In this document: positions 3,698 through 31,926 of the stretch, piece after piece
Layout: each line of letters begins with the position of its first letter
Numbering within the stretch: position 1 is the first letter of the stretch
From: Rhytidiadelphus loreus
Lineage: Eukaryota > Streptophyta > Bryopsida > Hypnales > Hylocomiaceae
Reading direction: 5' to 3'
NCBI GenBank assembly: GCA_947034895.1
Contig: OX344765.1
Location: forward strand, 13,335,001-13,399,000
DNA: 64,000 nt
Notes under the pieces: model-generated
The model's database searches: none
What the model saw: the letters and a program-made list of their open reading frames with translations, nothing else
What the model was told of the DNA's origin: nothing
Translations under genes and position numbers: made by a program

Positions 3698-3783
3698 GAA
3701 GGGAACCGAAGGGAAGGCGCGCCCGCCCCTGCTGGCCTGGTAGCTTGAGCTTTTCCTCGAACAATCGCCATCGCCTCCCTCGC

Positions 3784-3855: not shown

Positions 3856-3944
3856 GTTAGTTGCTGGTCGTGTTGTTGGTTTTGCGTTGCGTGAGTTGGA
3901 GAAGTGCGCGTGGAGGGTTGGTTGCCCCCGAAAGAGAGGCCGCC

Positions 3945-6063: not shown

Positions 6064-7080
6064 GTTGTTGGATGGACGGGGAGGAAGTCGCCTCGATCCG
6101 CGCTTTGCTAAGATAGTAGGAGGTGTCTTTATGTAGACGGCACGGTGCAGTTCAGTGGCGTGGGATCCGCGTTGTCTGCGTTCCCGTCCACTTCTGTGGA
6201 TAGTTTTACTGCACCCGTTCTCGGGGATTCCCGGGAAGCGAGTTGGAGGGTCGCGCTGCACCGGTCACTGGTCTGGTCCTAGCATTCCTTGAGAATGGAT
6301 TTCGAGGATGAATCGAAGGTAGCGTTCTCTTTGGTAGGTAGGTTCTGGAGTCGAGGGTAGGTTCTGGAAGCTTCCGGCCTTCGCGTATGCTCCAATTGGC
6401 TCGGCCCCCTTTTGGAGTTTCAGTAGCGAGGGCAATGCGGATCACAGCGCGTGTAGTACAGTAGGTAGCGTAGTCATTTCGGGGCATCAGTTCTTCTCGC
6501 CTGCAGTCCCTCTCCCGAATCTTTCGAGGTAGTCGTCGAGGTATGAGTGGGTGTTTTTTTGGTCAGCCCCGTACAGTATAAATTATTGGCCAGGATTCAC
6601 TGCGCCAGCACTCTGAGCCGATTCTCTTTGTTCCTCTTTTCTTTGTACCCTTTGTTTTTCCACGGACACCGCAGTGGGTTTCGTCGGTTAGGTCTTTCCG
6701 TAGGGCCTGTGCTGAAGTCCTGGCTTTGAAGCAGTTGGAGCGCGACATGGCGGATTGTTTAGGGCCATTAGGGTTGGCAGTACTTGTGGAGAAGGGTTGG
6801 TGGTGGGAGCTTACGTGAGAGTTGTAGCCTGTCATGCGGTGAGACCCTGCGTGGGAACACTGATTCTTTTGTAATATTCGTTTGAGAAATCACAATCTGT
6901 AAAGTATAGTGGAAGTTTTTTGAACCCGGAGTGTGTTTTCCAATGACCGTCCGTTGTGTCTGGTGTTGGATTGCGGACCGAATGAGCGGCCGCGTGGGTC
7001 TGGAAAGTTGTGTGGTTCCAGGTGTATGGGTTCTCTTGAGGGTGCCTTGGTTCTCTCAATTCCCTGCGCAAGTGGATGGT
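6064..7080 (+). other. 3' UTR and downstream flank of SnRK2 copy A
   Basis: Noncoding sequence following the stop. It is duplicated exactly downstream of copy B and lies inside the identical core. No clear AATAAA signal is seen. Open frames here are shared only because the DNA is duplicated; none resembles a protein. Confidence 0.5.
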
Positions 7081-10705: not shown

Positions 10706-10709
10706 ACTT
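10706..10709. other. Possible target-site duplication ACTT, left
   Basis: ACTT abuts the left terminal repeat and is matched by ACTT at 31923-31926, directly after the right terminal repeat. Four bases could match by chance, so this is supportive rather than decisive. Confidence 0.5.
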
Positions 10710-10734
10710 AAGGCCTTATTCGTTAAAATGAGAC
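10710..10734 (+). repeat. Left terminal inverted repeat of the large transposon
   Basis: AAGGCCTTATTCGTTAAA followed by ATGAGAC. The reverse complement of 31898-31922 matches at 24 of 25 positions, differing only at position 19 (A here, T there). Confidence 0.85.
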
Positions 10735-11268: not shown

Positions 11269-13753
11269 TCAATCTTCTTCCATATAGTCATCATTAGTTG
11301 CAGTTGTCGTAAAGGCCGCCACTGATGCCTTTATGATATCAATTTGCAAACTTGGAATTGTCACTTTTAGATGTTTAGTTGTTTCACGAAAACGTGGCTT
11401 CCAAGTTGTCATGATACAATCTGTATTTGCCCAATCTGAAGGTATTACGCGATCTTCACGCCACACATTCCCTTCTTTGGTGTCCCATCCGGCATAGTTC
11501 ACCATATCAATGTGCCGATCCGAAGTAGGTGTCCAATATTGGATTTTGATCTTATGCATATGCCCCGGATCTGGGTTGAGATAAAGGCCCTGGCAAGCCA
11601 AAATGGCTTCGGGTCATGATCTGCGGGACGCACCACAACAAAAGAACCTGCATGCGTATCACGATTAACACGAAAGGAAGGACGTGGACGATCACGTCTA
11701 CATCCAACAAAGGGTGCATCCTCTGCATCTTCTTCACGCAATGTGCCATCTCTTTGCATTCGATCTGTCTCGTCAGGGGCGATCCTCGAAGCTGGCCAAA
11801 ATCCATCAAGTAACACCTCACGTACTTGAAGAGGAGCATCCAAAGCACTTCTGACGCCTTTCCAATAATCTTGTAGTGGGCCATTCTTCCGCCTAAACTC
11901 TCCAGTGTAATCGTCATTTGCCATTTTGTTCCAATGTCCAACATAACCATTCAAGCCCTTCTTTATGTCATCAAGAGCTTTCATCGGTTGAGGAGCCAAA
12001 GGTAGAGGACTACCACTTGGCACTATGGGAAGTCCATCTTCACTCTCAATCCACAACCTAATTCCTTTGCCATGCTCTGGCAACCACTTATCGTCTATAC
12101 ACAAATTCTTATACTCCATCAAAGGCCATCCTGAAGAATCCATGAAAAACTTAAATTGTTGGGACTTCGAATGTCCTTCAAGGTAGTCCCCGCGAGAGCC
12201 CAAGTAACCCTCCACAAATTTCTTGAAATCAGGAAGCTCCTCAATGAGATGAGGAATCACGGGATGCGTTTCACAATCCATGAAGGATTTCATGAGCAAA
12301 GGAAGTGTTGGGTAGTTATTTGTCTTCAATCTTGAACTCCATCGACCAAAAAGAGCATCAATGTCTTCGTGAGTGTGTCCTACAATGAGGAAGTTGATGT
12401 ACACCTCACGAAAAATGCCTTTATATACAAGCAAAGAGCAAAAACATATCGATTCTTGTTGTCCCCTGAAGCATTATCCAATTGCAATACTAATACTGGT
12501 GGGAGAGGTTGAACCGGAATCGGTTCTTGTAGAGGTGGAAGGAGGGAGTCCAAGCAATTCTCTACTCCAATTAGAAGTGCCTTCGTCAAGGTGGATTGGC
12601 CTCTCTCGATAGAAAATAACGTGCGCGATGAATTCTTTGGCGGTCCTTCCAAATCACGCAACAACCTTGCAATGGATCCAATGGTATGATTTGAATCAAA
12701 TGGGTAAATGCCCAAACCGTAGTATGCATATCGCACATCTCCATGACCATGAGCAATCATACCTGTAACAGCAACGGGCATTTTCATGAAGGACTCTGTC
12801 ACTTTGGTCTTGTGAGAAAAGTGTGGAGAAGACGTCTTTGAATGATCCATTTTATCATGAATGATGCACAACATCTTCTCTGGGTATGTCTCGGAAAAAT
12901 ACCAATTTCCGTAGTAGTATTCCCTATGGGCCTTCTGCCCGGCAACGTGGATATTCAAAAGATTAGTCCACTTATTTTGTGTCTCCGAATACACACAAGC
13001 ACTCCTCAATTGCTTGTATGTATCACAGAGGCCACACCTAGCAAAAGTGTCTCCACGAGCCTTTGCAGCAAATTCTGGGAAAGAAGCACGGCGAATGTTG
13101 CTCAAGCCACTAGAAGAAATTGGTTGCAAGTCAAGTGATGCATTACACTCATTGATTTTTGGTAATTGCTCACTCCAACAAAATGCAGAAGGTAGAACCA
13201 TTGAGGGGACTTTCTCCCCAGACTCTAATGTTCTTGTCTTGTGTGGCATTTTATCTGCATCAGACTCAATAAGTTGGCAAAGTGTGGCAGTAGCTTGAAG
13301 AGTATGCATGCGGGGCTTCTTTGATCCCACATTTCCATGGACCTCAGATTGCTTTCCAACTCTGGCCTTTTCTTTATACCTATAGTAGGTAGCTTTTGCA
13401 ATCCCATGAATGATCCACCACGCTGTGGGACACACTTCCCTACCTTTCAAAGTTATCCACTCCTTGCCATCAACGTCTTTGTGGATTTGCCTATGCACCT
13501 CTAAAAGTGTCTTGTTGCGAGCCTTGAAGTCATAACCTCCATAGAGGTCAGTCCGAATTGCTTGAATTTGCTCACGAGGAAAAGGCTGCACACAATTTCT
13601 ACTGCAACATGTTTTCGTGGAAACTGTTGTGATGGATTCCATAGTGAGGAGAAACTCTCTCTTAGGAGGCACAACAGGATCAACCTTCTCATGAGTTGTT
13701 TCATATGATCGAACCCCTTTACGAACTCTTCTGTTTGAGGCGTTTGCAGCCAT
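11269..13753 (-). pseudogene. DUF7869-type protein, frameshifted; transposase candidate
   Basis: Three overlapping minus-strand frames form one degraded protein: 13753-12380 (start MAANASNRRV), 12434-11499 and 11601-11269. The first break lies near 12434, between the strand LQLDNASGDNKN and the signature IVGHTHEDIDALFGRW. The second lies near 11590, after DPKPFWLARA. Both fit the loss of one base. Cysteine pairs at CCSRNC and ARCGLC suggest small zinc modules. Acidic residues in IIHDKMDH, LQLDNASGDNKN and GHTHEDID are placed like an RNase H-fold DDE/D triad (inference). GHTHEDID marks DUF7869 proteins, which are common in some seed-free plants. As the only DNA-processing candidate in the transposon it is the best guess for the transposase. 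An endonuclease or unrelated cargo cannot be excluded. Confidence 0.7.
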
Positions 13754-14138: not shown

Positions 14139-14677
14139 TTATCTTCGACTCGAGGATGACAAATTTCTATGCTATAAGTAAATATATAGGAAGAGTAAAT
14201 TCGGAAATATATGGCAATAGCAAAGTAAGAGACATTGATACAGATGTTTGAACATGTCGTCTAAAGGACAGAGGTCAATACTACATCGTCGACTCGATGA
14301 CAAAGTATACCCACGATTCTAGAGTTTATAGTAGGATTCCAATTTATCATCGAATCGATGATAAATTATTATTTCACAGTAAACCACACATGTACTGTGA
14401 TTGCTAACAGTTGATTTCAATAATGATGTTGGATTGTTTAGCAATTTCTTGACAATAGTAATCTCTCTGACAAGAGAAAAATTATCGTCGACTCGAGGAT
14501 AATATACTGACTCTCAACCTAGAAGCTATTATGTAACTTCACTGTTAATTATGATAATATACTTCTTAAGTTTGTCTAGTAGACGGGGTCATTAACATAT
14601 CGTCGAGTCGATGATAATTTTTTCTGATTCAGAATCACAGTATTGTTGTCAGTTTGTTATCCTCGAGTCGATGATCC
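14139..14677. repeat. Palindrome cluster I (six copies)
   Basis: Copies of half-site TTATCNTCGA, one central base, then its reverse complement: 14139-14159, 14283-14303 (degenerate), 14344-14364, 14482-14502, 14597-14617 and 14657-14677. The third is a perfect palindrome with 11-bp arms (TTTATCATCGA). They lie in noncoding DNA upstream of the exon at 13823-14061, most likely an intron or leader of the DUF7869 gene. Confidence 0.9.
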
Positions 14678-15045
14678 CGAGAAATGCGGCTAAATATTCG
14701 GAAGCCTCCATGTTCATACATTCTTCACATTTACGTCATGAGGAAATGATTACACCTAAGAGACTGCACTACAAAAATGTTTCCATACTCCCATCCTATA
14801 CAGTACTTTCAAAACCAATGACATAGTGCACACTATCAACCTCCACATCTCTCTACATTCACTACAAGGTTATCATGTAAATCCAATGCAGTTCTATAAC
14901 AACGCAAATGACATAATGACTCCGATGACATAATGACTTTGTCAATGCCAACTGGAGAAACCTATAATACATCACATACAAACAAAACAACATCAAGTAG
15001 GAACCATAAATGAGCAACACCATTTGTTTAGTGCATAAAATCATA
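14678..15045. other. Noncoding sequence, probable first intron of the DUF7869 unit
   Basis: AT-rich with no coding signal. It lies between palindrome cluster I and a donor-like site at about 15045 on the minus strand. Confidence 0.35.
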
Positions 15046-15215
15046 CCTAAACACAATCACTCGACAACAACATGCACTACTCTTCACTCCAAACGACTGA
15101 AAATGATGCGCATCAGTTGGTGGTGTTGAACTTGCTTCCGAATACGGAGGGAGAGCAAGAGAGAGAGGGCGGGAGTGAGATATGGCGGGATGTATGAGGC
15201 GGGAAACACAAATTC
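15046..15215 (-). promoter_or_regulatory. Putative promoter/5' leader of DUF7869 gene
   Basis: Read on the minus strand, a CTCTCTCTCTTGCTCTCCC pyrimidine tract at about 15150 is followed by a leader-like segment ending TGTTTAG|GTATGATT, a good 5' splice site. Pyrimidine-rich tracts are common in plant core promoters and leaders. No TATA box was confirmed. Confidence 0.4.
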
Positions 15216-18129
15216 AAACGGAAGTTTCCAAGTTTAGATTTAGATCCGCTTTCAACTTTGGCCGATATTCCCGTCTCTAAAAGGTGCTTCCATTAACGAT
15301 GTCACCTAATTTTGGATATGGAGAAGTCCTTCCAAGAAGGCTGCTCTAGTCCACGGATTCCACAATTGGAGGAAATTCCGTGGTTGCCAGCTTGCGAGCG
15401 GGAAGAAAATTCTAAAGAAAAAAAATACATTTTTCTGATACATCTCTAATTTAGAGCATCAATCATGACCATCTTCTATCAAGCATATTTCAAGAGCAAA
15501 AGTTGGTGTTGTAGCCAGGGCAAATCTAATCAGCTTTTGTAACCTCAAATCAACAAGTACCAATGTATATTTGCAGCCCATATAGGAACCAAATCTATAA
15601 TACAAGGACAAATAAGATAACATAAGGTAGAATAAAGTCCAATCAGATAAGACATTAGTCTTGTCTCATAGTAACAATTTAACTCCATCCTATGTAAATG
15701 GAGTATAGACCAAGCTCCCAAAGCTTGCACATATTAAGCTTAGACGCTACAAAATCACAGGAAGCTCAAAAGACTCCCAATAGGAATTTGAAGCAAATGT
15801 AGTCGAAATTCTCATGAGGTAGTAGACCTCACCTGCACCCATGACAACCAACATCCAACAAGAGGTTAGTTAAGTCGTATGCAAGGTGTCTTCAATCTAC
15901 TACGCTTGTTATCGCTGTCACATGAGAAATAAACTCCAACAAATGCAAAAATTCCATCACCCAAGACCACTGATAAAATGAACCTGACTGTTGTTGGCAA
16001 ACTGAGATGCAGCCATGATAGTAAAAACCTCCTTCAATTGAAACACCACAAACCCACGTTGCATACAAGCTGGCCAGGAGCTCTAGTTATAGTCACAAAG
16101 GTAGCTTTGTTAACTATTGCTCATCTTCTCAACGGAAGGTGAACATAATTGTAAGTAATAGCCATGGCATAACTCATCTGGCGGCAATTTTCTAGGCAGA
16201 TAATTCAAATCAGCTATTTAAAAGCATAACCATCTGCCTCCCATATTAACATGGATGGCTGGCTTGCAGTAAGCCCACAATTAGTAGCAGCTTAACACTG
16301 CTTGCAGTAAGCTCATAAATAGCCGCAGCTTAACACTGCTGACAGTAACTTTACTGACGGTAACTCTGCTAATGGTAGTTTAATTTAGGACCATATGCCA
16401 AGTACTAAGCACCAATTAACACCTGGCCATATGCATCCCATATCAACATGGGTGGGTGGGTGGATTAGAATCAACAAACTTATTGAGGAAACAGTCAAGA
16501 AGATCCTCTGATGTCATTTCATAATATACCACTAAATTAACAACTAGAGGTATAGAATAAATCTGGAGACATAACTTAAGTAATTAGCTGGTCACTAATA
16601 CTGGTTGAGAGATCTTGAAAAAAAGAAAAAAGAAAAAAGAAGTAAAAGATAAGAACCTATGACCGTGGATTCAGTTAATTTTTTAGTAACATAAATGTTA
16701 GTTGATTTTCCTAAATTTCGAATCAATTACAAACCTTTGAAAATAAAGAAAATTGTAGTATGCAAATGTTATAGATTTCTATAAAAAAAGTGTAAACAAA
16801 AATGAATCCTCAAGCACATGTAGGCACTAAACATTCAAATCCATCCTTGTTTGTTTGTTTGTTATGTTCAAACCTCCCAAATTGAAGGACCCCCCGATTG
16901 CATGTTGCGTACCGTTGGAAAGCCCTCGGCAAGGACATTTTTTTGTGACGTTTGGACACATAGTGCAAAAATTCTTTAATTTTGAAGTTATTTATGGATT
17001 AAAAATATTTTAAAATTATTTTTATTCTTGATTTCAATGTGCTTGGTTCCGTTAGAAAACCCTTTGCAAAGAGGCCGTGGTGCATACATTTTGTTTCTTG
17101 ATGTTTAGACTCATGATACACGAATGAAGTCATTCATACATTACAAAATTTAGAAAATTACTTTTAAGTTTGTTTTCATTGTGGCAACGACACAGGATTC
17201 TTTAGTAATAATTAAAATCAATACAAAATGCACTGGCTTATAAGATTTGTCAATCTCACAAGTCCAATTTCTACATGTAAAAGTTTGGAAAGCATATGTA
17301 CAAGTTTGCAAATACACTTTAGATTTGTAATCCATAAAATTTTTTTGCTCTTGACCATTTTCTAAAAACATATACAAGAATGAAAATATATAAAATTACA
17401 GCAGGCGTTCTACTTTAAATTCCAACACCTATAAACTCATGAGTTTTTCACGTGAAAGAATTTGGAAAGCATATGTACAAGTTGCAAATAATTTTAGATT
17501 TGTAATCCATTAAAATCTTTGATTTGCTCTTGATCATTTTCTAAAAACATATAGAAGAATGAAAATAACTAAATTCATGACAAATATAAAATATAAGTGA
17601 CGAAGAAATTATGTGGTCATGAATGCAACATCCTTCAAGTATTAGTAACTTATTTGAAGCATTTGGCATCTTCTTATATGTGCATTGTATGGGATATAGA
17701 GTTTGATTAGTTTTTCTTAAATACAGGGCATGAGTCATTCTTTTTTGCAAGCATCAAAATTGGATAATAAACAATAGTGACCCTTTCCTTGCGCAAAATA
17801 ACTTTTACTATTTAATTTCATTAGGCCATGTGTAACTGTTGTAGTTTAAGAAACGAAAGGCCAAAAAATAAAAGAGAAATTGAAAACAAGAAAATAAAAG
17901 AAATATTTCGATGTTGTAAAGTACAGAATAATTAAAATTTCATGAGGAAACTAATTTTATGCTACTTGTATGCAATCTTCAATCCGCCAAAGAATTCTAC
18001 TTTCATATGCCATATGTTATTGTCTAGAAATCGTAACTTTTAATTGAAATAAAATAATTTAAAAGATATATATATACACTTGATGGCTTTTAATTAGGAC
18101 TTCAGGGCTTATAAACTGCAACGCTTGGT
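15216..18129. other. Noncoding interior of the large transposon
   Basis: AT-rich with no recognisable gene on either strand. Short duplications occur, for example around 16260-16380 (TTGCAGTAAGC and AGCAGCTTAACACTGCT repeated) and 17280/17460 (GGAAAGCATATGTACAAGTT). Confidence 0.45.
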
Positions 18130-18850
18130 TCATTTGCGTACAAAAATGCATGAAAGTACCATAAATTAATTATTTCCATGATTTCTAAATGTTCAATTAA
18201 TCTTGAACTTCTACATATTTTTTTGATTTCATTTACTTCATTTATCCCATGGCTTTTGGGAGCGCCTGGTTTAATTAAATAAAAGTTCCTTGGCGTACAA
18301 AAATGCATGAAAATACCATAAATTAATTATTTCCATGAATTCTAAATGTTCAATTAATCTTGAACTTCTACATAATTTTATGATTCTATTTACTTAATTT
18401 ATCCCATGGCTTATGGGCTTTGGTATTTGTTAACTACAGTGCCTGGTTCAATTAAATAAAAGTTCCTTGGTGTACAAAAATGCATGAAAGTACCATAAAT
18501 TAATTATTTCCATGAATTCTAAATGTTCAATTAGTCTTGAACTTCTACATATTTTTATGATTCCATTTATTTAATTTATCCCATGGCTTGTGGGCTTTGG
18601 TATTTGTTAACTACAGCGCCTGGTTCAATTAAATAAAAGTTCCTTGGTGTACAAAAATGCATGAAAGTACCATAAATTAATTATTTCCATGAATTCTAAA
18701 TGTTCAACTAATTTTGAACTTCTACATATTTTTATGATTCCATTTACTTAATTTATTCCATGGCTTCTAGGCTAACCTTCAGTATTTGTTAACTAGGGTA
18801 GAGCCGTAGAGGGCTCATTGAAAGATATGATTCTTGGTGTACAAAAATCC
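18130..18850. repeat. 177-bp satellite-like tandem repeat, about four units
   Basis: CATAAATTAATTATTTCCAT recurs at about 18160, 18317, 18494 and 18671. The last two intervals are 177 bp; the first is 157 bp because of an internal deletion. Units also share GTACAAAAATGCATGAAA and AATTTATCCCATGGCTT. A monomer near 177 bp is in the usual size range of plant satellites. Confidence 0.85.
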
Positions 18851-20715
18851 ATATAAGTTGTTTGATTTATTTTTTCTAAATATTTCTTAGTGTTCGTATA
18901 AATTCCCAAACTATAAAAACTCATTAAAGGTTTGGGGTTGTAAATGTTGTCAGAAGTTGAAAGTTTATTTAGAAAATAATCATAAATTGAATACATTGAG
19001 TGCAAGCTATTTTTTTTTATACATTATATATAACAAAAATGGTACAGTCCATCGTATTTTGGGTGCAGGAAATGTCAAATGTCATGAAGAAAGATTGAAA
19101 GAGCATGTAGATTTTAAATAATAGAAGTTTTGAAAGAGACAAAGAGAGCACTATCAATTATGCCAATCATAAGTCACAAATCATTGTACCTAGTGGCACA
19201 CATTCAATATCTAGTATAATCATGAATGACAATTATAACAGTGAATGTCTATTTATGGTGACTAACTATTTTGAATGAGTGGTGAAACGGAACAAGTTAA
19301 TTTAAACTACTACATATGATTGTGAATTTGAATTATTTGTTATATTAATTAACTATATACTTTAAATCCAAAAATATTCATTTGCCATCCAATGCAATTT
19401 TGATAAGTTTGTGAACTTCATTTAGCACGAAAAGAAATCAACAAAATATTCATTTGCATTTCTGCTACAAAATACATGCTAAAGATACCTGAATTGTGGA
19501 ACTTCAATTTTAATAAGGTACTAGTAGCATTATTTATATGTATTTAGAATTATATTTTAAAGTATTTTCATTCTTGTAAAATTATCTGAAGGCCATTTTT
19601 GAACAATATAATCTATGATTCTAAAAAATCGTAGTTTAAAAAAAATATTATAATTGATTCATTCTAATTTCTAAAGAACAAAGTCTTATTTATTTGGAAA
19701 TAGTCTATTTCATTGGTTTATATTTTTCAATGGACACTTTGTAATTACTGTAGAGTAGAAAAAATAAAACCATTTAGGATTCACAATTAAGGATAATTAA
19801 GAACCAAAATTCCTCTAAAAAAAAAATAGTGTGGAATCAACTTTTGTTTCGGTGGAGGGCTAAAGTTTATTTGGAAGAATTTTGGACTAACATTTGATCT
19901 TGCCTTTACATTCTCTAATTTTCTTAAATACATACCTAACTTGGATTTTTTTTTCACCAATTTCTCAAAACATTATGCAATTAAAAGTACAACAAATTCT
20001 AACGTAAGTTCTTTATCTTTTTTTTGGACTTTATAAATTTTCAATGTGTTCTTTCTCGCAAGACACTAAATCATGCTCTATTATAAAGTGGGCCAATAGA
20101 GTAATTTGGGGGTTCATTGGGGTACAATAAAAATTAAATCCTCATATTTTGAGTTCTAGGTATGGTCTCTACAATGTGAAAAGTTTAGTTCTTCTTCAAC
20201 AATCAATATTCAAAAATTATAAATATAACCTATAGGTTTCAAGTACTTAACGTCTTCAAATACTTTAAGTAATGGCACTTGTAGAACTAAAATAATTACA
20301 TAGAACTGAATTGTTTTCAATGAAAACCTTTTTAATACGTGGTATACATTTTTATACCTCATACGGCAAAAACACATGCGCAAATTGCTTAACTTTAGAA
20401 AAATAAAAATACTGTATAAGATGTTCTTTTTTTTTAAAGAATTTCGAAGATAAATAGTTGCATTTCTATTCTATATAGAAGAATTCACTGTCATGCATTG
20501 GACATTTAGTATCCATGGTAGCGTTACAGGGCTAAGTGGTTCACAATCAAAGGTTACAACATACATGAACTCTTACGTGTTTTTAGGTTTATATTCTGGA
20601 CGATGAACAGAGGTCTTGCAGGCGTTGTTTCATCCAACTACCTTGTCATTAAAACAGATGTAATACTTGAATCTTGAGAAGACAACCTTCTTTTATGCAC
20701 AATTTCATGAAATTC
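18851..20715. other. Noncoding interior of the large transposon
   Basis: AT-rich with no recognisable gene or RNA. Confidence 0.4.
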
Positions 20716-21278
20716 TGGTAAATGGTGTTACTTTTCAAAGATATAAGCAATTTGGTAAATGGTGTTATTGTACAAAGGTATAAGCAAAAATGTGTCCAAA
20801 TTTCAAAAAGAATCTATTTGTTAAGGGGTTAAATATCGATGAAGAAGTTAGACCTTCGTACTAAGGAAGGTTCGCCCCTCAAAGCGAATATACCCTCAGG
20901 TCCGGGTATCAACCTCAGGCGGGTATAAATACCGCTACAACGGGCGTGTATGATTGACAACACGACGGGTATGATTAACAGAGGGCGGGTATGAGTGTGG
21001 TGAATGGTGTTACTTTTCAAAGATATAAGCAATTTGGTAAATGGTGTTACTGTACAAAGGTATAAGCAAAAATGTGTCCAAATTTCAAAAAGAATCTATT
21101 TGTTAAGGGGTTAAATATTGATGAAGAAGTTAGACCTTCGTACTAAGGAAGGTTCGCCCCTCAAAGCGAATATACCCTCAGGTCCAGATATCAACCTCAG
21201 GCGGGTATAAATACCGCTACAATGGGCGTGTATGATTGACAACACGACGGGTATGATTAACAGAAGGCAGGTATGAGT
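20716..21278. repeat. 281-bp tandem duplication
   Basis: Two near-identical units. The landmark TTAAGGGGTTAAATAT recurs at 20821 and 21102, 281 bp apart, with only a few substitutions. Each unit includes GGTTCGCCCCTCAAAGCG and CAGGCGGGTATAAATACCG, so a potential TATA motif is duplicated. Confidence 0.9.
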
Positions 21279-21425
21279 GACAAGGGCGGGTATGCGTGAG
21301 GGGGGCGGGTATGAGTGAGGGGGGCAAGTATGAGTGAGAGGGGCGGGTATGATTGAGGAGGGCGGGTAAGAAGTGAGGGGGGCGGGTATGGGGGCGGATA
21401 TGGGCGGGTACGGGCGGGAATGTGT
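21240..21425 (+). repeat. G-rich minisatellite, about 20-bp unit
   Basis: Imperfect tandem copies of GGGGGCGGGTATGAGTGA. Closely spaced runs of G on the plus strand could fold into G-quadruplexes. It lies just upstream of the likely transcription start region of the plus-strand ParB-like gene. Confidence 0.85.
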
Positions 21426-22600
21426 GTCGGGCATTAGGGTTTGGCGCTCCGTCTTTGCTGCATCTGGGCGCAAGTTTTCTTTGCTGCTTTTTTTTCTGTT
21501 TTTTTGCTGCGCTTGTTGTTTTCTGCCGTGTGAGTTCTTATTCTCTGGTGAAGTTCCTAAACTTGTGAGGTCTTGGCGGAGGTTGGAGTGAGGTCTTGGC
21601 GGAGGTTGGAGTGAGGTCTTGGCGGAGGTTGGAAAAGCTTGGCGGACTTCGAGGAGCTCAGCGCACCTTGGCGGAATCAGCAGAACTTGGAAGCAGCTTG
21701 GAAGAGCGCAGCGGAGCTTGAAATCTGATTTGCGGAGCTTGGAATTTGATTTGTGAGGTATAGTCTTTCTCGCGTTTGATTTTGGAGAGTTCATTTTCCC
21801 GCAGTTTATGTGGATTTCATGTTTTTGCAACGAAGCTTCCAAGGTTTCAAGCAGGTTGTGAATATTTTTTTCGCACCTTGGAAGCTGAAACCCCAGTCGC
21901 AGCTTCCAGTCCAAGCTTCGAATTTGTAGCTTTGCAGTCTGTGAATTTGCAATGAATTTGATTTTCTTACCAGTTCGGACTTCGCGTTAGATTTGCGTGG
22001 AGGGTTTAGGGATTTGATTGATCTTCCGTGTGTGATCTTCCGTGCTGTGCGACTGGGTTTTCGAGATTGTGAATTTGCGTTGTTTTTGATCGCCTTGTGT
22101 GATCTTCCGTGACTATTGCTGTGCGACGTGGGTTTCATTGTTTTCGATCGCATGTGTGTGATCTTCTGTAAGTATTGCTGTGCGACTGGGTTTTTGAGGT
22201 TGTAAAGAAACCTCACATATTTCCAAAATGGTTTTGAGTTTGTATATGGAAATACGCTGAGTGTTTTGAGGTGAACACTGAAAGCTTTCTAATCTTGTTG
22301 CTGTGCGACTTTGGTTTTTGCATTCGTATATGTTTAGGATTTATTTCCATGTCTGATTGCGTATTTGTGAGGTTTCAAGAAGCTGTGAGATCTCTTGTTC
22401 AGATGGTTGTCAATGTTTGGAACTCTATTTTTTATGTTTTGCTGTGAAATTGTTGTCGGGGTACCAGGAAATCTTCCAGTGCACAACAAATTTTATTAAA
22501 TTTTTTTGACATGCTTGCACGTTTGCATGTCAGTGTAACAAAAACACAATTGTGTTGTTGATCAGCGTTTACACATACTTTGTTGACTATTGGCTCCAGG
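21426..22600 (+). promoter_or_regulatory. Putative promoter and leader of the ParB/methylase-like gene
   Basis: A GC-richer block containing ATTAGGGTTTGGCG, a word typical of plant leaders, three tandem 23-bp units (TGAGGTCTTGGCGGAGG core, about 21566-21635), and repeats of TGTGATCTTCCGTG with CTGTGCGACTGGGTTT at 22020-22200. It ends in a strong 5' splice site, CCAG|GTAAGTC, at 22599/22600. No convincing protein frame was seen, so it is probably untranslated. Plus-strand transcription through it is inferred. Confidence 0.4.
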
Positions 22601-22799
22601 TAAGTCAGTTGCTTGAATAGGAATTAGGGTTTAGGCATCCAAATTAGGGTTTAGAATTTACCAAATACAACCACAATAACCTACACGGAAATATATCCCC
22701 GATGCAACGATAAAACCCTTTCTTCAAAAGGCAGATATGGTCACAAGAGTGGAAAATGGAGTCACCGACTAATAGAACAGGAATAGAGAACTCTGTTAA

Positions 22800-23295
22800 T
22801 TATCCTCGACTCGAGGATAACATACAAACCGATGACTATTACAATTCTCATTCTATATTACTCACAATCCAATAAAAGAAATTAAAATTATAGACTAATA
22901 AAACTCTGTAATAAAGAAAAAATCTAAAACAAAGATTATCCCCGAATCGACGATAATCCGGGTGATTTATAGATTCAAATCACTCAAACGAACATAGCAT
23001 TCTATCTTATATATATATCAATGAACAACATTAAAAAAAAAAAATTTTAATTTTAAAAATTAAATCATACATAGTTGAGGCACACCTAAATTCTAAGACC
23101 TTATCCTCGAGTCGGTGATAATAGAACCGATAACATAACAACCAAGAGTTGCAAAGATAAGAATGTTTGTATCGTCATCTGGTGATAAAAACAGACGAAA
23201 TGATTCGTGCCATTATTAAAAAAGGATAAAAAACTAACAAATAAACAATCCGGCCAAAATAAATAAGAAGGAAATTATCATCGATACGATGATAA
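22800..23295. repeat. Palindrome cluster II (five copies)
   Basis: Copies at 22800-22820 (perfect 10-bp arms TTATCCTCGA around C), 22936-22956, 23101-23121, 23169-23188 (degenerate) and 23275-23295 (one mismatch). They lie downstream of the splice donor at 22600 and before the first recognised coding exon, so most are probably intronic. Confidence 0.9.
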
Positions 23296-24196
23296 TCAAA
23301 CTCACATTAGAGCAAATTTCGGGTCTCTACATGCCTAACTTGCTTTTTGTAATATCGGGCCAGAAAATCCTTGAAATTACCACCTTGCATGTTGCCAACA
23401 TGGAGTCTAAGGTGATGACATCAGATTTGACATGGGATGCCTCCAATCGGAGAAAAGTGTTGGGTATGATAAAATAAAGGTGTACCCAACGTACCATGTC
23501 CTCTGTTCAGATTTTAAAAAGCATTTGGAAATGGATGTACTAATGCAGGACTTGTCCCGCAACCGGACATTCACAAAATTGAAATCACCTCCACATTGAC
23601 ATTCCCACATTCCCCCAAGTTCCCACACTCCTCAGCTGGATTGTACACCACAAGTACAAAAATTAGAAATAGTAGCTTCCAAATCTCAACCCCTAAACTC
23701 GGACTAAACTAGAAATATTTTCCAAATGGTACTTACAGACTATAGTAAAATAGTGGTCAAAGAATATTAAAAAATGTGTTGTCTTCATTGCTTCAAGTGC
23801 TAAGTTGCCAACAGGGCCACTATTTGTACAAAGTGAAGGTGCACGGCTGTTGCCAGCTAGGACGGGCTTGAGTGCTTTGATGCCAACTAGGTATGTACCG
23901 CCCAGAGCTCATTGGTGCACAGGTTTGATGGAAACGCTTGGAATTGACTATATAATCAGAATTAACCCTTTTCCAAATAGCAAAAAATTAATTTTCAAGC
24001 CAAAAGTACCGGCCATCCAGAGACCCAAATTTTGTTCTAATGTGAGCAACTATCTCGACCCACTGTAGAAATTAGAATTAATGCAATCCCAGAAATCACC
24101 AAACACAACACAATCACCAGAAAAAGCACTGGGACGAAAGCATTCGAAAATTATTGAAACATTTTAAAATAAATGAAACCCAATACTAAGAATTCA

Positions 24197-24217
24197 TTAT
24201 CCTCGCATCGACGATAA
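24197..24217. repeat. Palindrome copy in intron
   Basis: TTATCCTCGC-A-TCGACGATAA. It lies 37 bp before the acceptor at 24254, inside the intron 23891-24254. Confidence 0.85.
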
Positions 24218-25697
24218 TGCATCACTGAATGACCGACATGTACATTGATTGCAGGTACATCACGATGGAACCAACAGATGGGTATGACTACTCGGCGAGC
24301 GGGCACCATCTAGTTCTCTTTGAGAATCCAATGAAGGACGAACCCTTCATTGTCGAGATGGAGGACACGTATGGAACACTATGGGAGTTTAAGGACTACA
24401 TCTCGACGTGGTCATTCGGAGTGAATCGGTTCAAGAATTACGTCTTCCTCCGTTATTGTGTCCAAGGGACAACTACCTTCATGCCCTGGAACATTAAGGA
24501 GAAGGTCACCTTAATTGAAGAGCACAACCAAGACTACGTTGTCCTAGTGCTCCGTGAGTGTGATGACAAAGGAAATCCTGGAGATCATTCCCACTCAATT
24601 GTCATCGACGTAAATTTAGAGCAGGCAAAATTTGATCTGGACAGCCTCATGGACTTTCTCAAGGGATCACAAATGGAGTCCCTGAACGACCAATTCGTGA
24701 AATCAGGATACGTTCCTTGGCTAAACACCCCGGCGAAGTCGATTGCCACGAGACTGTGCATAATATTCCAGACGCTAGATCGATATGCACTTGAACATGT
24801 CGAGGCGGAGCCGGCAATAGGTCGCGCCGCTGCGCAAGGACGACGGAAGGAGGCCGAGTCACTAATAACACCAGCATCTGTCGAGGGGGTGTCGGGAGGG
24901 AGAGCTGCAAGGTCGGGACAAACCAGATCCGAGCTTCAAAAACGAGCCTCAGCACCCTCTGAAGAAGCAGGGCCATCGAAGAAAAGGAGGAAAAGTCATC
25001 CAGGTGGACCTGTTGGTACAGGTAGTTCAGGATCAGCATTGACGACAATGTCGGCTGGTCCAACCACTTCGTCAGCTCCAGTGCTTGAATATGAGAAGTT
25101 TGCAGAGATTCAGAAGAACTTCTGGGCGGAGCACAAGAACTGCTTCCTATTCGATGATCAATCCTTGCAGGTTGACATCGACCAATGCATATTGGCTCTT
25201 CCCCAGTATGTCATTCGGACCCTACAATGGGACATTGTCGATGCCAACAAGAAAGAACTCATTCAATACATTGACATCAAACAACGGCAGAAGCTGTGTC
25301 TCACTCCAGTTGATGGCAGAAATAGATTATTGAAGAAAAAGCCTGAGAACTGGGATGATATTAAGAATGGTCGATTCATGATTATCAACGGCCAGCACAG
25401 CATAACAGCTTCCCAAGAACTCTAGGAAGGGGGATGTGGAGAGGCCAGGAAGGTAGAACTTCAGAGATGGGATGCTTATATTGTGTGGACGCTCGATCCC
25501 GCTAAGCTCAGGGGTATTTCGAAGTTCTACAACATCACCAATCATTTGGACCACGCCCAACCAACCTGGGGGAACCAAATGATCAGCTGCAAGCAGATAT
25601 GGATGACTTACAAGCGGCCAACAGACACCCGTAGCGAAGCTCAGACACGAAAAAATGAAGTCGTGTTTCACCTGAGCAATTTCAAGGTACAGCCACG

Positions 25698-25718
25698 TTA
25701 TCACCGATTCGGTGATAA
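25698..25718. repeat. Perfect palindrome copy near a 5' splice site
   Basis: TTATCACCGA-T-TCGGTGATAA, perfect 10-bp arms. It begins 11 bp after the donor GT at 25687. Both arms carry compensating changes from the commoner TCGA core, so symmetry is kept although the sequence differs. Confidence 0.9.
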
Positions 25719-25848
25719 TAAGAACCGTCAATTCGAATGAACAATCGATAAAAACATTTCATTGGACATTCAATATGAATAGAATACGATTCAGCCAGTG
25801 TTAATTTCACTTAGCAAGTGTTAATGTGCTTGTTTCAATATGCTAACC

Positions 25849-25869
25849 TCATCCTCGAGTCGAGGATAA
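25849..25869. repeat. Palindrome copy near a 3' splice site
   Basis: TCATCCTCGA-G-TCGAGGATAA, one mismatch. It is the second copy in the intron 25687-25931, about 62 bp before its acceptor. Confidence 0.9.
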
Positions 25870-27279
25870 CCTGTTCTGGCCATTCAATATGATATGTTCA
25901 TTCTAACATTATCTACTACCGGATCTTGTAGAGTTTTACTAACGCGGTAATCGAGAGGTTCCAGAATATTAATCCCGAGAGAGATGGTGCCTTAATTAAT
26001 GGAACCGCGGATCTAAAACCTGAAATCCAGATCATTACGTTGCCGAACGATCTTTGGGCGATGTGGGAGACTTTTCTCACAAAGCACTCCGAGGGCGAGT
26101 TGATTGATCCATTCTTCCTGACAATGCACAAGGACGTGAAGGGATTCAAGCTCAAGAATCACTCTCTGAAAAGAGAGTTCTTCAAGCATTTCGGGCACTT
26201 CACTGACAAAGACTACGGGGTCAATGTGCAGCACCTGATCGGTCAAACCCCGGGGTGGAAGGCTTTGTACCCGAAAGTATCCGTTGGGGTTCCCAAATTT
26301 ATTGTTCCTGACAATATGACGCACAAAGACTGGGTGGATTGGAGGAAGCGCAAAAAAGTTGTGCTTCAGGATTTGATGGCAGTCAAGCCCGCCTTAAAAT
26401 TTTTTGATAGTGCGGGTAATGTTGTCCATGAGACGTGGCACTCTTGGAAGGCAAGGCACAGATTCACTTCAACCTCGTGGGATTTCCTGCTCACGCACCC
26501 GAAGGCAGAGTACTTCAAACGGCGTTTGCACAACGATGCATGGTTGAAGCGGGCGAAGGACCTCGAGAAGCAGTTTCCCGAGGTCCATCACATGTTCGTG
26601 CGGTTCATGAAGTTGAAGTACCAACTTCCTGAACATGCTGGAGGGGTGCAGATCAGGGGGATAGATTACAGCGCGAAGGCGTTGATGACGAGTTCCAGTT
26701 ACCAATACCACCCCCTGGAGGTCAACATGGCTGTCGTGGATATGAGAGAAATCCCTATCCACAAAGAGGGAGGCAACCCCATGGAGCCCTTCCTCCACTT
26801 CCTAAAGAAGAAACTTGAGCCAGAAATGACAATGCCAAATGTCTGGCTATTCATTTTGAAGCGAAGAGACGAAATCAAGACTGCAACAGTTTTTGCAGGT
26901 TTGCACCTCAACGAGTATGAGTGTGCGATGTCGAAGTACGTACCGAGCCGAGCCGAGCTGTTAGACAACATTTCAACTCGCGCGACAGCTCCAGACTTGC
27001 CACTGCTGTTCCTTTTCAAAAAAGGAAATAAATTTGCAAAAGCGGCTCGTACCTTGTTCAAAACGAGGTACGTGACGTCCGATCACAACGTGTACTACTA
27101 TGAATTCGGTAGGAACACGGAGGACAAGTGGAGATTCGAGGCCTCCAAACTCCGAATGGAGTTCTACCTCGAGATCTTGCATCTATTTGCGCAGCCCAAG
27201 AAAAACGTTTTGGGCATCTACACGGGAGCCAAGTTCATGCTGGCCGCCAAGGTATAAGACATTGCCACATAGGCTTCTG

Positions 27280-27300
27280 TTATCACCGTGTCGGGGACAA
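27280..27300. repeat. Degenerate palindrome copy near a 5' splice site
   Basis: TTATCACCGT-G-TCGGGGACAA, several departures from symmetry. It lies 28 bp into the intron 27252-27434. Confidence 0.6.
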
Positions 27301-27375
27301 GCCTCCTAGAATTTTCCATTTCAATGTCATTACTACCTGTTTTTTCATCTATCTCGTGTGCTCCACAGGCTGGAC

Positions 27376-27396
27376 TTATCCTCGAATCGAGGATAC
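27376..27396. repeat. Palindrome copy near a 3' splice site
   Basis: TTATCCTCGA-A-TCGAGGATAC, one mismatch. It lies in the intron 27252-27434, 38 bp before the acceptor. Confidence 0.9.
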
Positions 27397-28642
27397 CCCT
27401 TGTCCTACTCAATGACCTGTCCTGTGTGTGGCAGATGTTCGGGGCGTTCTTCTATGGATTTGTTGATAAGGAAGATGTCAAGACCTACCTCAGCGTCTCA
27501 TACTTGGCAAATAAGATGGACAAAAATGATTTCATGATGTCCAATTCACCTTATTCGATGTTGTATGAGAAGCCACCTACACGTGAACCTGTCGCAGATG
27601 ACTCGAGTCCCCCCGCATCGCCACCGATGACTCTCGTGTCTCCGACGGTTCATAGTGACAAGGAGATTGATGGACCGCAGTCGAGATCTAACCCCGTTGT
27701 CGAGGGTATCGATGAGTATGGAACAAACATGTTCCAGATTTTCACATGGATGGCCTCTCTTGGTGTCTTACCCTCTGAAAGAGCCGATCCTACAGTTGAG
27801 GAAACGGCGACGGAACCGGCTGCCCTTCCAAGGTCCACTCAACGTGCAAGGACCAATACACCTCTAGAAACCTCAGTGCCTGCTAGTTCCTCTGCGCCTG
27901 TAGGGTCCGATGTACCTACTGCACCTGTCAATGAGTTTCCGGTTGATGAGGGCATGGAGACAGACTCCGAGTTCGATCGGCAGCGTGCAGCGAGCGGAAA
28001 AGGGGGGCAAAAGGAAACTCAAGGGCAAGAGGATGCTGACGCTCTCGGCAATGAATCCCTCATTACGCAAGAGGGCACACAAGAGAAAGCGCCTGAGATC
28101 ATTGACCTGGGCGATGACGATGACGAATTAGATCACCCTTGAGAGTCTGACGAGGACGAGGAAGATTTAGACGGCCCTCCCAAGGTGAAGGAAGCGAAGC
28201 CTCTCGTTTTACCGTCTGGATCCATTGTGAAGGTGGAGAAGGACTTCTGGAAAAATGAGGAGGAGAGGAGGATCGACCGTTTCAAGCAAAGAGAGGCCGA
28301 GAAATTGGAAAAGGAGGCGAAGGACAAAGCACTGGCTGAAGCAAATGCAAAGATTGTTCAAATGCAGTTGGATTCAAGGAGAGAGATGGACAGTATCACT
28401 TCTCAGCTTGTAGAGCTCAAGAAAATGATTAGTTCACAAGGGAGTCAAGGAGTGCCAGAGTCCTCTACTACGTCTCAGGCTCCACCGCCACCACTTCCTC
28501 CTTCCTCATTCACTGATCCATTAGGACATGATGAGTTTATCAAGTCAACACCGGCATCTCAAATTCCAAACGTCTCTTCCCATGACCACAGCAAGGTCGA
28601 GGCCCTCCCACAACTCCAGAACGTCGCAAAGCCTGCTCAAGA

Positions 28643-28663
28643 TTATCCTCGACTCGGTGATAC
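28643..28663. repeat. Palindrome copy within coding sequence
   Basis: TTATCCTCGA-C-TCGGTGATAC. It is read in the main frame as YPRLGDT. Confidence 0.85.
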
Positions 28664-28870
28664 TGCCAAAGTGGTCCCTAGACCATCAAGCGGCAAAGGT
28701 TTATAGCTCCCGTGTCAGGTATCGGAGCAGGTCATGCCAGAAATCCAACCACCTTCTGATCTTGACAATGAGGAGAGAGTGGACTACGGAGAAGACGAGA
28801 AGGATCCAGAGGACGATATCCCAATGGAATCCGGGGGTGGCTCGTTGGAGGTCTCCGTAGAAGGGAGGAC

Positions 28871-28891
28871 TGATTCTCGAGTGGCCGATAC
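28871..28891. repeat. Degenerate palindrome copy within coding sequence
   Basis: TGATTCTCGA-G-TGGCCGATAC. Weak, but aligned in the same reading register as the other coding copies (DSRVADT). Confidence 0.45.
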
Positions 28892-29147
28892 TACACAGGT
28901 ACAGACCTCTGACCCTTATAAATTCGATTAATTGAAGGAATTCTTCTGGTCCAGTGTCTTTGTAGTTTCACAAGCTTAATTGTACTCCTCCTTCGTGACA
29001 GGAATGCGAGCCCCGTCCTTGATTACCTGGCGCAGACGGCGCTGACGGAGATTCAGTCTGTACAATAGTGTAGCATAGTGTTGACTCCGCATTTTTGGCG
29101 GCTTAGTGGAAAGACGAATTTTCGACATGTATTATATAATCTATGTA

Positions 29148-29153
29148 AATAAA
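29148..29153 (+). terminator. Polyadenylation signal AATAAA
   Basis: An AATAAA in an AT-rich run about 80 bp after the last in-frame stop of the ParB/methylase-like gene and before the HAD-like gene. It suggests that the two are separate transcription units. Confidence 0.45.
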
Positions 29154-29437
29154 ATACGCACGTTTATTTATATAAGGTGCAAGTCCATCTAATTGTATCC
29201 CACTGTCCATGTTTTTTTGGCTCAGCTTCAAAAACATGAAAGCGTACACCGTCCACTACCAATGAAAGCACTTCCTCTCGGGAGCCCCCGGTCGATTAGT
29301 GGAATTAAATGCATCTCTCAGCTTTCTGGCTCTGCAACTTCTACATTTAACCAGGTACCTCCCATTCTTCGTTGTTTTGTTTTGATCAGGTAGAATCGGA
29401 GGGGCTGAAAGAGGTGGAGGCCAGGATTGAACATCCT

Positions 29438-30223
29438 ATGATGCCTCCACCGCGGAGGAAATGGTTGAACATTGTCTTCGACCTGAACGGCGTGTTGTGC
29501 CAGACGGCAAAAAAATCATACAACGAGAAAATGAAGCCCTACAAGCTCAAAGACAATGTTCTCTACCATCGGAAACCCACGATCATCGGGCCGAAGGCGG
29601 TTTTCGCTCGGCAGAATCTCAACGAATTCCTCCGGCAGGCTTCGGAGATTGCACATAGGGTCATTGTGTGGACCACCATGTTGAAGCGCAATGCTGAACC
29701 GATCGCGGGGCACTTGTTTTTGGGCTACAGAACCCCGTACGATATCCTAGGTCAGGAGCAGAGCACGAAAATAGAAATCGCTAAGGGAAAATTCTTCCAT
29801 TTGAATAAACAAGTGCATTTAATGAAAGTGCTTTCGGACAGTTTGTTCACGAGTAATGGTGGGGGGCCATCAATAGACTCGTCCAACACCCTTCTCATTG
29901 ACGATAGTCCTCACAAGAGTATCTGCAATGAGAATGGGAACGCCATATTTCTCAAGTCCTGGGATCACACCTACCGGAGGGACGACGTTCTCTTGGGCAC
30001 CCTCCTTCCTTGGCTTCGGCGGTTGCATTCATCTTGTCCGGACGGCGGATTGTTGCAATATGTCAACGAAAACCGAATCGGTTTAAACCCGCTCGAACGT
30101 GATGACTATAACATGAAGGAGGTCATAGAGGGCATGATGGAGTCAGCCGAGGTCATGGGTTCGCGATTTGATCTTCGGGGTATAGGCCTAGTGATAGAAA
30201 AGAAACACAGCTGGAAAAAATAG
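29438..30223 (+). CDS. FCP1/HAD-like protein with altered catalytic motif
   Basis: An open frame of 261 aa from the first in-frame ATG. It has the HAD/FCP1 layout: FDLNGVL at the N-terminus (motif I), VIVWTTM (motif II) and LLIDDSPHKS (motif IV). FCP1/SCP-type enzymes have DxDx(T/V) in motif I and dephosphorylate serine in substrates such as the RNA polymerase II tail. Here the second Asp is Asn, so ordinary phosphatase activity is doubtful. The frame also continues upstream from an acceptor-like GATCAG at 29389. An ATG exon at 29262-29354 would join in phase, but the intron would be only 35 nt, so the 29438 start is preferred. The gene follows the ParB-like gene on the same strand and is intact, unlike its transposon neighbours. 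Confidence 0.65.
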   Translation: MMPPPRRKWLNIVFDLNGVLCQTAKKSYNEKMKPYKLKDNVLYHRKPTIIGPKAVFARQNLNEFLRQASEIAHRVIVWTTMLKRNAEPIAGHLFLGYRTPYDILGQEQSTKIEIAKGKFFHLNKQVHLMKVLSDSLFTSNGGGPSIDSSNTLLIDDSPHKSICNENGNAIFLKSWDHTYRRDDVLLGTLLPWLRRLHSSCPDGGLLQYVNENRIGLNPLERDDYNMKEVIEGMMESAEVMGSRFDLRGIGLVIEKKHSWKK

Positions 30224-30517
30224 ACTTCCGTATAGACGCGCATTCAGGGGCCCAGGCATATCGTATTTTGTATTTTATATTTTATATTCATGTATTCAAC
30301 ATTTATAAATTGTAAATAATATATGGAGTTCTTCTTCATCATTTCTTCTATCCTTCGCTTCATCTTGGACTCTGCGCTGTATTCCATGTTTTCATCCTTT
30401 AACAACTGGAGGAAAATGTGTGTGGGTTTCCGCAATTATGTATTGCAGGTTGAAGGTCTCTGTTTTGTTAAAATAGCGAAAAGGCAGAAGCTCACGAGGA
30501 GTCTCCTTTCCAGTTCC

Positions 30518-31363
30518 ATGAAGTCGGTTTCCACCAAGTCCGAATCGGAAGGCGGAAGCTACAATACGGTTCCCCTGTCTAAGCCCTACATGTTGCGTTC
30601 AGCCACAGACGCCGCCTCGGCCGCCATAGACTATTCGAAGGGGAACGTCGAGGACGGGGTCGTAGACAGCCCCCCCAGTCGCGGACCCGACAGGACTCCC
30701 ATCTGCTCCCTTTTGCCGTTGAAGCGGGCATCCTCAAATCGTGGGCCGTCGTTGTCGCCAGGTCTGCGGACGGACGGAGGGACGAGCCGCAAACTGCAAC
30801 TTCCTCTCGAAGACACACTCGGTCATCCTCGAGGCGAGGATGTCATCTCTGATCCGTCCGCACTGCCTACTATCCTCAAGGTTGGAGTGATGTCATCGGA
30901 TGGGGTTGAGGACGAGATGACGATTCCAAGTCCCGGGCCGTGTGTTGCGAGACGCTTACCTCGACTCGACGATAACTGGACTTCCTCGTCCAAGTTGACG
31001 ATCCCTAGACAGTTACCGTCCGCCGACAGTCTTTTCCGTCATCGAAATCTTAGAGAACTTCGACGGTCTCTGGGCTCTAAATCAACTAGTACTGGATTTC
31101 CGTACGGAAACAATGCGAAAGTATCGCTGCCAACCGTGCCTCCGCGAGGATCAAAGTCTCATTCAGCTTCGGAAGTTCCTCATGCCACATACAATTCGAA
31201 AAGGAAAACCAATGGATCTCATAGTCTAGGGCTATGTGATGTTGTGGTTAGTGCAAGCAGGCTGCAATATCATTCTCGACTCGAGGATATCTTGAGAGGC
31301 CGAGCAAAGCTGAAGGCAAAAGAGATTGAGAAGAGCAATTGTACATCCAAGAGCAATACTTAG
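30518..31363 (+). CDS. Unrecognised Ser/Arg-rich protein
   Basis: An open frame of 281 aa from the ATG at 30518. The frame stays open further upstream to about 30323, and an acceptor (TGTATTGCAG) at 30447 suggests an earlier exon. The product is rich in Ser, Arg and Pro, probably largely disordered and basic. No domain was recognised. It contains three palindrome copies, all read in the same register (HPRGED, LPRLDD, HSRLED). It lies directly downstream of the HAD-like gene and could share its regulation. Confidence 0.45.
   Translation: MKSVSTKSESEGGSYNTVPLSKPYMLRSATDAASAAIDYSKGNVEDGVVDSPPSRGPDRTPICSLLPLKRASSNRGPSLSPGLRTDGGTSRKLQLPLEDTLGHPRGEDVISDPSALPTILKVGVMSSDGVEDEMTIPSPGPCVARRLPRLDDNWTSSSKLTIPRQLPSADSLFRHRNLRELRRSLGSKSTSTGFPYGNNAKVSLPTVPPRGSKSHSASEVPHATYNSKRKTNGSHSLGLCDVVVSASRLQYHSRLEDILRGRAKLKAKEIEKSNCTSKSNT
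30823..30843. repeat. Palindrome copy within coding sequence
   Basis: TCATCCTCGA-G-GCGAGGATGT. It encodes HPRGEDV in the frame of the unrecognised gene. Confidence 0.75.
30955..30975. repeat. Palindrome copy within coding sequence
   Basis: CTTACCTCGA-C-TCGACGATAA. The left half has one base missing relative to the consensus. It encodes LPRLDDN. Confidence 0.75.
31270..31290. repeat. Palindrome copy within coding sequence
   Basis: TCATTCTCGA-C-TCGAGGATAT. It encodes HSRLEDI close to the C-terminus of the unrecognised protein. Confidence 0.8.
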
Positions 31364-31897
31364 GATAGCCTGTCTAATTTTTGAAGCCTCTTGCTTCTAT
31401 GATTTTTTACTATAAATACCGTGGTAAATACACATTGAAAGTGCTTATAAAAGTGCAAGGCTTCATGTAATACAACTATCTAATTCTAGGCCTTGCTTAC
31501 TATAAATAGAATGTAAATTTTGGACATAAAAAAATTTTAGAAAAAAAATAATATGCTTCTTCAATTGTACTTCGATTATACAAAATTGTATATCATTGGT
31601 ATCGTAGACTTCAATGCATTTTGGGAGCAAAAGTCACTTACTCTATGTATTTTCTAAGGACCAAGTGAATTGAATATATTGAACTTGCCACTACAAGTTA
31701 CTTCTCTTTTACTCGAGCATATCGTTTGAATGTATGACTTCTCGTGTGATCATGCCCATCCACACCTTTGGTTTAAGACATTTAAGTCAAAGTTTATAAT
31801 TCTTGTCGACGATCAGCTCAATTTTTCATGGGGTTCAACAACTCTATGCTCTATACAACAGCGCTACTCGTTTTCAAAGTCTCAAAATGACCATTTC
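31364..31897. other. Noncoding right end of the large transposon
   Basis: AT-rich 3' flank of the last cargo gene leading into the right subterminal repeats. No gene seen. Confidence 0.4.
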
Positions 31898-31922
31898 GTC
31901 TCAATTTAACGAATAAGGCCTT
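31898..31922 (-). repeat. Right terminal inverted repeat of the large transposon
   Basis: Reverse complement begins AAGGCCTTATTCGTTAAA and then TTGAGAC. It matches 10710-10734 at 24 of 25 positions. Confidence 0.85.
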
Positions 31923-31926
31923 ACTT
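31923..31926. other. Possible target-site duplication ACTT, right
   Basis: Matches ACTT at 10706-10709, immediately outside the left terminal repeat. Confidence 0.5.

Follow-up and report, generated by a model that had tools for sequence, protein, structure and literature searches.

A 21-bp palindrome array and a ParB-like/methyltransferase-like gene in a transposon of Rhytidiadelphus loreus

Results

The transposon and its palindromes

The stretch analyzed herein (the window) comprises 64,000 nucleotides of the Rhytidiadelphus loreus genome (assembly GCA_947034895.1, contig OX344765.1, positions 13,335,001 to 13,399,000) and contains a transposon of 21,213 bp, of which the boundaries (10710 to 31922) were placed by terminal inverted repeats and a 4-bp target-site duplication. 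As summarized in Table 1, the element carries a transposase gene and, on the opposite strand, a three-exon gene for a protein with predicted ParB-type and methyltransferase-like folds (the ParB-like gene), together with an array of the 21-bp palindrome TTATCNTCGA-N-TCGANGATAA. The palindrome occurs 17 times in the window at up to three mismatches, as against a mean of 0.04 in 100 dinucleotide shuffles, and 20 and 22 times at up to four and five mismatches, respectively, so that the "about 21 copies" noted in a preceding inspection of the letters alone (the sequence-only reading) was a fair estimate. Its statement that the copies are confined to the transposon was true within the window, where every site with up to five mismatches falls within 14139-31722, between the element ends. 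The leftmost site lies 3429 bp from the left end, and the last site with up to three mismatches 632 bp from the right end. By the gene models, 17 of the 22 sites are noncoding and five (28643, 28871, 30823, 30955, and 31270) are in coding frames. Sites 22800 and 25698 have the perfect 10-bp arms ascribed to them, whereas the arms of site 14344, formerly given as 11 bp, are perfect over 13 bp as read from the sequence.

Table 1. Features of the transposon and positions in the window
Feature	Position	Strand	Remark
Left target-site duplication ACTT	10706..10709		Second copy 31923-31926
Left terminal inverted repeat AAGGCCTTATTCGTT...	10710..10734	+	
DUF7869 transposase gene	11269..13753	-	Pfam PF25273; frame interrupted in window copy (ORFs, open reading frames, 12380-13753, 11499-12434, 11269-11601)
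Palindrome cluster A, 6 sites	14139..14677		14139, 14283, 14344, 14482, 14597, 14657; upstream of transposase gene
Palindrome cluster B, 6 sites	22693..24217		22693, 22800, 22936, 23101, 23275, 24197; upstream of ParB-like gene
ParB-like gene, exon 1	24229..25686	+	N-terminal domain and predicted ParB-type domain; one in-frame stop in window copy
Intron 1 palindrome, first	25698..25718		
Intron 1 palindrome, second	25849..25869		
ParB-like gene, exon 2	25932..27251	+	Helical region and predicted beta-class methyltransferase fold, motifs degenerate
Intron 2 palindrome, first	27280..27300		4 mismatches
Intron 2 palindrome, second	27376..27396		
ParB-like gene, exon 3	27435..28931	+	Low-complexity tail; two in-frame stops in window copy
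Palindrome in coding exon 3	28643..28663		
Weak palindrome in coding exon 3	28871..28891		5 mismatches
NIF/FCP1-type phosphatase gene	29372..30223	+	Pfam PF03031, E = 3.6e-13; kept between copies
ORF conserved between copies	30323..31363	+	Comparison of copies
Weak palindrome in 30323 ORF	30823..30843		4 mismatches
Palindrome in 30323 ORF	30955..30975		3 mismatches
Palindrome in 30323 ORF	31270..31290		3 mismatches
Weak palindrome, last one ahead of right end	31702..31722		5 mismatches
Right terminal inverted repeat	31898..31922	-	
Right target-site duplication ACTT	31923..31926		

Across the genome (407,041,205 bases, 489 contigs), the terminal-repeat end was found 333 times at up to one mismatch (167 forward, 166 reverse), and its reversed control once. 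The 97 exact ends formed 17 inward-facing pairs 10-30 kb apart, all 17 of which enclose a scored ParB-like gene, its start being located 7.2-7.8 kb from one element end in 16 pairs. Sola1 transposons have a 4-bp target-site duplication, and such an exact duplication flanks 11 of 11 pairs here (the window element and 10 of the 16 others). The window transposase gene matches Pfam PF25273 (DUF7869) in two of its three ORFs (E = 7e-23 and 1.3e-14). DUF7869 genes are more widely spread than the element (1805 candidates, of which 150 were scored); a scored ParB-like gene lies within 20 kb of 15 of the 150, on the opposite strand in all 15, as compared with 3, 0, 2, and 0 in shifted controls, and since 88 of 1063 ParB-like candidates were scored, these proximity counts are lower bounds.

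Conserved placement of the palindromes

The placement of the sites was assessed in the 30 best ParB-like copies with 1.5-kb flanks. Sites were found upstream of the gene in all 30 copies and inside the exon 1 match in none, while a site followed within 260 bases of that match, in intron 1, in 29 copies. Two sites were found there in 26 copies, and three of the other four (L060-L062) have shortened matches; the first intron site begins 12 or 22 bases past the exon 1 match in 26 of the 30. Diverged relatives retained this arrangement, with two sites per intron in c11120 (60% identical in exon 1) and c13612 (36-55% identical), one per intron in c44673 (45% identical), and four sites upstream plus one in intron 1 in L005 (40% identical), a contig of 4.2 kb deposited in a cyanobacterial metagenome-assembled genome. 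Since it has an intron, L005 is probably a contaminating eukaryotic transposon contig; the annotation of its protein (P0070) is that of a hypothetical protein from a cyanobacterium. Outside the palindromes, the diverged introns shared 0-3 (intron 1) and 0-2 (intron 2) nine-mers per pair, and the sites evidently persist where the introns have otherwise diverged.

A palindrome cluster also precedes the transposase gene in all three copies where this region was visible (the window, c13612, and L010). Arrays repeating with a 37-49-bp period precede both the transposase gene and the ParB-like gene, and also lie close to where the last ORF begins. Among the other loci, arrays of 37-44-bp period were located at 1223-1521 of L010, 15845-15985 of the joined L030/L031, and 1421-1987 of L011; those in L010 and the L030/L031 copy sit upstream of the transposase gene, and no gene was found in L011. 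These arrays look as if tandem duplication had multiplied them.

Predicted proteins of other collections read through into the introns, and some of the resulting tails encode the palindrome. In 63 outside proteins, 31 of which have tails of at least 10 residues, 19 peptide traces of the palindrome were detected in 1630 non-exon residues versus none in 22,446 exon residues, and were carried by 15 proteins. A second set of 57 proteins gave 16 traces in 1362 non-exon residues versus none in 20,979 (shuffled mean 0.055), distributed over 14 proteins, one of which is that of L005 itself.

Genome-wide distribution of the palindrome

At up to two mismatches, the palindrome was found at 6897 places in the genome versus 16 for the reversed pattern; as far as sampled, the motif is thus not equally common outside the elements. 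Among palindromes with shuffled half-sites (n = 20), one gave 37 hits, presumably by its resemblance to the real one, and the others 0-1. On C1 up to 49.41 Mb, exact palindromes amounted to 58 sites in 28 clusters. From 20 loci of 3 kb fetched around the first exact C1 places, 11 were non-overlapping and represented eight places; in this sample, which is not random and includes four loci of two copies that had also served as queries, an element gene was inside nine of the 11 loci and at seven of the eight places. Locus L011 lies less than 9 kb from a locus carrying an element gene, and L018 showed only short DNA matches to the element ends and to L033. Within the same part of C1, an exact palindrome occurred within 15 kb of four of six ParB-like hits, two of 22 DUF7869 hits, and 1.9% of random points. 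Exact matches to the pattern were also seen in two Frankia, an alphaproteobacterium, and Moraxellaceae (L001-L004).

Symmetry of the arms

The sequence-only reading had held that changes in one arm are often mirrored in the other. Using 173 unique sites in random orientation, mirrored changes exceeded expectation at position pairs 6/16 (82 vs 54.9) and 7/15 (142 vs 121.2) with p values of about 0.002, which are optimistic as the sites are related to each other, and weakly at 8/14 (p = 0.03). They were not above expectation at 10/12 and not clear at the other pairs; 1/21 and 5/17, which looked mirrored in a smaller set of 84 sites, were not upheld in the larger one (p = 0.12 and 0.06). The arms are accordingly not fully independent, but the mirroring is partial, involving 32 of 245 deviant arm pairs.

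The ParB-like protein

The window copy of the ParB-like gene has three in-frame stops in all; a good share of the 88 scored exon 1 copies are free of stops. Structure predictions indicate that the encoded protein joins a ParB-type domain to a methyltransferase fold of the beta class lacking the catalytic motifs; the domain assignments rest on predicted folds, because sequence profiles gave no credible match. Exon 2 matched none of the Pfam profiles, and among PDB profiles it hit arginine methyltransferases alone (E = 1.1 and 1.3, last 44 positions). A ParB-type N-terminal fold was recognized in the predicted structure, as was a beta-class N6/N4 DNA methyltransferase fold with motif IV ahead of motif I, for which the structure search spanned residues 236-440 of exon 2.

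Methyltransferases of this kind are expected to have the catalytic motif [DNS]PP[YFW] and a second glycine in motif I. The 29 aligned sequences contained no [DNS]PP[YFWH], and 22 of them read D-x-R-x-x-P at its place; motif I read G-x-K, where the second glycine was expected, in all 25 rows reaching it. As for the ParB part, the nucleotide-binding motif of ParB in ParABS systems is of the GxRR type; its place reads GQHS in seven of seven sequences, three of which have a G..R..A string somewhere. Scanning of 19 ORFs gave no ParA-type Pfam match, the ParA family itself not being listed. In viral contigs, 43 stretches matched the protein patterns, and none was confirmed as a relative.

Discussion

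Proposed self-marking by a palindrome-binding protein

The position and conservation of the palindromes, the partial covariation of their arms, and the co-occurring ParB-type protein point to sites for a dimeric DNA-binding protein, as the sequence-only reading had suggested. The recombinase site offered there as a second option was not supported, since the sites spread through the interior and the element terminates in inverted repeats of the ordinary kind, flanked by 4-bp target duplications. The best overall explanation, which we regard as fairly probable, is that the transposon marks itself by means of its ParB-like protein. A dimer of this protein, probably the palindrome binder, would occupy the 21-bp sites and thereby mark the DNA of its element where the two divergent genes start and within the introns of the ParB-like gene. 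The marking would control these genes and prevent silencing, like VANC proteins in VANDAL elements; for such an outcome, anti-silencing or self-regulation, the chances seem slightly below even. The protein might also spread from the clustered sites, like bacterial ParB, which appears unlikely.

Binding and marking by the ParB-like protein were proposed because the layout of the sites matches that of the VANC21 sites in VANDAL21. VANDALs are Mutator-like elements and thus have another transposase than the present one. The VANC21 sites of Arabidopsis are many element-specific 9-bp motifs arranged in noncoding DNA in one orientation and in tandem arrays, and occur also upstream of the transposase-side gene VANA21 and in introns of the gene for the binding protein (PMC5735166), the whole constituting an anti-silencing system (PMC5735166, PMC10398659). 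The present element likewise has a dense private motif in arrays, in the introns of the accessory gene, and upstream on the transposase side, this likeness being one of layout; in contrast to the short VANC21 motif in one orientation, its site is a 21-bp palindrome.

Several observations weigh against this self-marking reading. The palindrome binder could be another element protein (the transposase, the phosphatase, or the product of ORF 30323) or a host factor. The model of the ParB part is weak (predicted local distance difference test score 57.7), exon 1 had no credible match among Pfam, NCBIfam, and PDB profiles, ParB not being found in Pfam or PDB, and no helix-turn-helix was identified in the protein, though no listed family covers it. 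Only two of the ten position pairs showed clear covariation. The diverged introns had no more than 0-11 of 13-26 nine-mers in common even within the palindromes, because the sites vary within the palindrome rule. The finding that the bases at positions 6-7 of the site differ among copies from different element families is limited by the use of one representative per family and of sites that are not independent within an element; position 7 is also not the same in the window and in c11120, its 60% relative, and a T-type base at position 6 is common to c13612 and c44673, which are not closest relatives by protein. Two DUF7869 hits of the family, one near a scored ParB-like gene (C1:2310660) and the other adjoining an exact end (C1:23859404), had no exact palindrome within 15 kb, so that exact matching alone under-detects sites. 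Finally, 48 of the 63 and 43 of the 57 outside proteins showed no palindrome trace, P0004 and P0005 included. The latter two, 48% and 46% identical to the window protein, are from large contigs, and their intron read-through is palindrome-free in the readable frame.

Alternative explanations

An active methyltransferase that modifies the element's DNA in or around the palindromes, in the manner suggested for the Ectocarpus relative described below, is improbable in view of the degenerate catalytic motif and motif I. Quite improbable, too, is binding of the palindromes by the DUF7869 transposase for synapsis or repression: the cluster upstream of its gene and a weak site within 200 bases of the right end would suit it, but the first site on the left is far from the element end, sites occur throughout the other gene and its introns, and exact palindromes accompany ParB-like hits more often than DUF7869 hits. 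The GAGAC-type repeats near the element ends look likelier as end-binding sites.

The recurrent spacing of the first intron site from exon 1 would fit RNA hairpins in the transcripts, which might for instance control how the ParB-like gene is spliced. However, the clusters upstream of both genes speak against this very improbable option, and on the sense strand G.T and A.C mismatches were equal in 62 sites (22 vs 22) and numbered 1 vs 3 in 13 intron sites, without an excess of G.U-compatible arm changes; a DNA site is hence favored over an RNA hairpin. The predicted ParB-type fold and the clustered palindromes are also reminiscent of a ParB-parS role in partition or bridging, in which parts or copies of the element would be joined for replication, transposition, or segregation. 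We hold this to be hardly probable, considering the missing ParA-type match among the scanned ORFs and the GQHS at the place of the nucleotide motif.

Relation to known systems

In its general description, Spm/En TnpA is similar, being a transposon protein that counteracts methylation and has many binding sites of one short motif, although these sites are subterminal. Bacterial ParB-parS, Noc, and KorB have palindromic sites in clusters. They share the predicted ParB-type N-terminal fold with the present protein, which differs by the altered nucleotide motif, the apparent lack of a ParA-type partner in the ORFs scanned, the methyltransferase-like domain further on, and the residence in a eukaryotic transposon. 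Phages and bacteria have proteins in which a ParB domain is fused to a methylase fold of the adenine or N4/N6 type; one of them, BFVD A0A6J5MMM5, was a loose match, and nicking activity has been reported for another, Bce_0392 (PMC5512222). These fusions are prokaryotic, whereas the methylase motifs of the transposon protein are degenerate.

Sola1 transposons have been described before with ParB-methyltransferase genes. Sola1-1_Ec32 of Ectocarpus is a 21.5-kb Sola1 transposon with a ParB-like and N4/N6 methyltransferase gene opposite the transposase, for the product of which, the methyltransferase being predicted active, self-binding and self-modification were suggested; green and red algal relatives are cited therein, and no word starting with "palindrom" occurs in its text (PMC12477816). 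The present element resembles it in size class, in the presence of a transposase gene, and in the opposite-strand gene, the latter perhaps not a feature of all Sola1 elements, and differs in the loss of the methyltransferase motifs. Our literature search found no report of the palindrome array or the lost motifs, although the cited algal papers were outside its scope and an earlier description is possible.

Tentatively, and with less than even probability, the transposon may have domesticated a bacterial-type ParB-methyltransferase fusion and dropped its catalysis, making of it a self-recognition protein loaded at about 20 parS-like palindromes per element to hold the chromatin open, in an anti-silencing system of an origin separate from that of VANC and with recognition bases diverging between families. 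Whereas the ParB-methyltransferase genes of giant algal transposons were, in the text seen, reported without a target, the element described herein offers a concrete candidate site, and its thousands of natural site variants make it testable in vitro what such proteins bind, and why. If true, anti-silencing here would give VANC a counterpart, as another instance of transposon self-recognition by a dense private motif.

Other features of the window

The NIF/FCP1-type phosphatase showed 46-64% identity to that of two other element copies. The spacer between the palindrome clusters contains tandem repeats at 18104-18791 (177 bp, 4 copies) and 20716-21279 (282 bp, 2 copies). The transposon is located between the arms of a 3386-bp inverted repeat (3698-7083 and 41227-44612; 100% complementary, 34 kb apart), which may be a recent duplication or a larger palindromic structure, and a near-perfect inverted repeat of 142 bp with a 10-bp spacer was found at 62483-62776.

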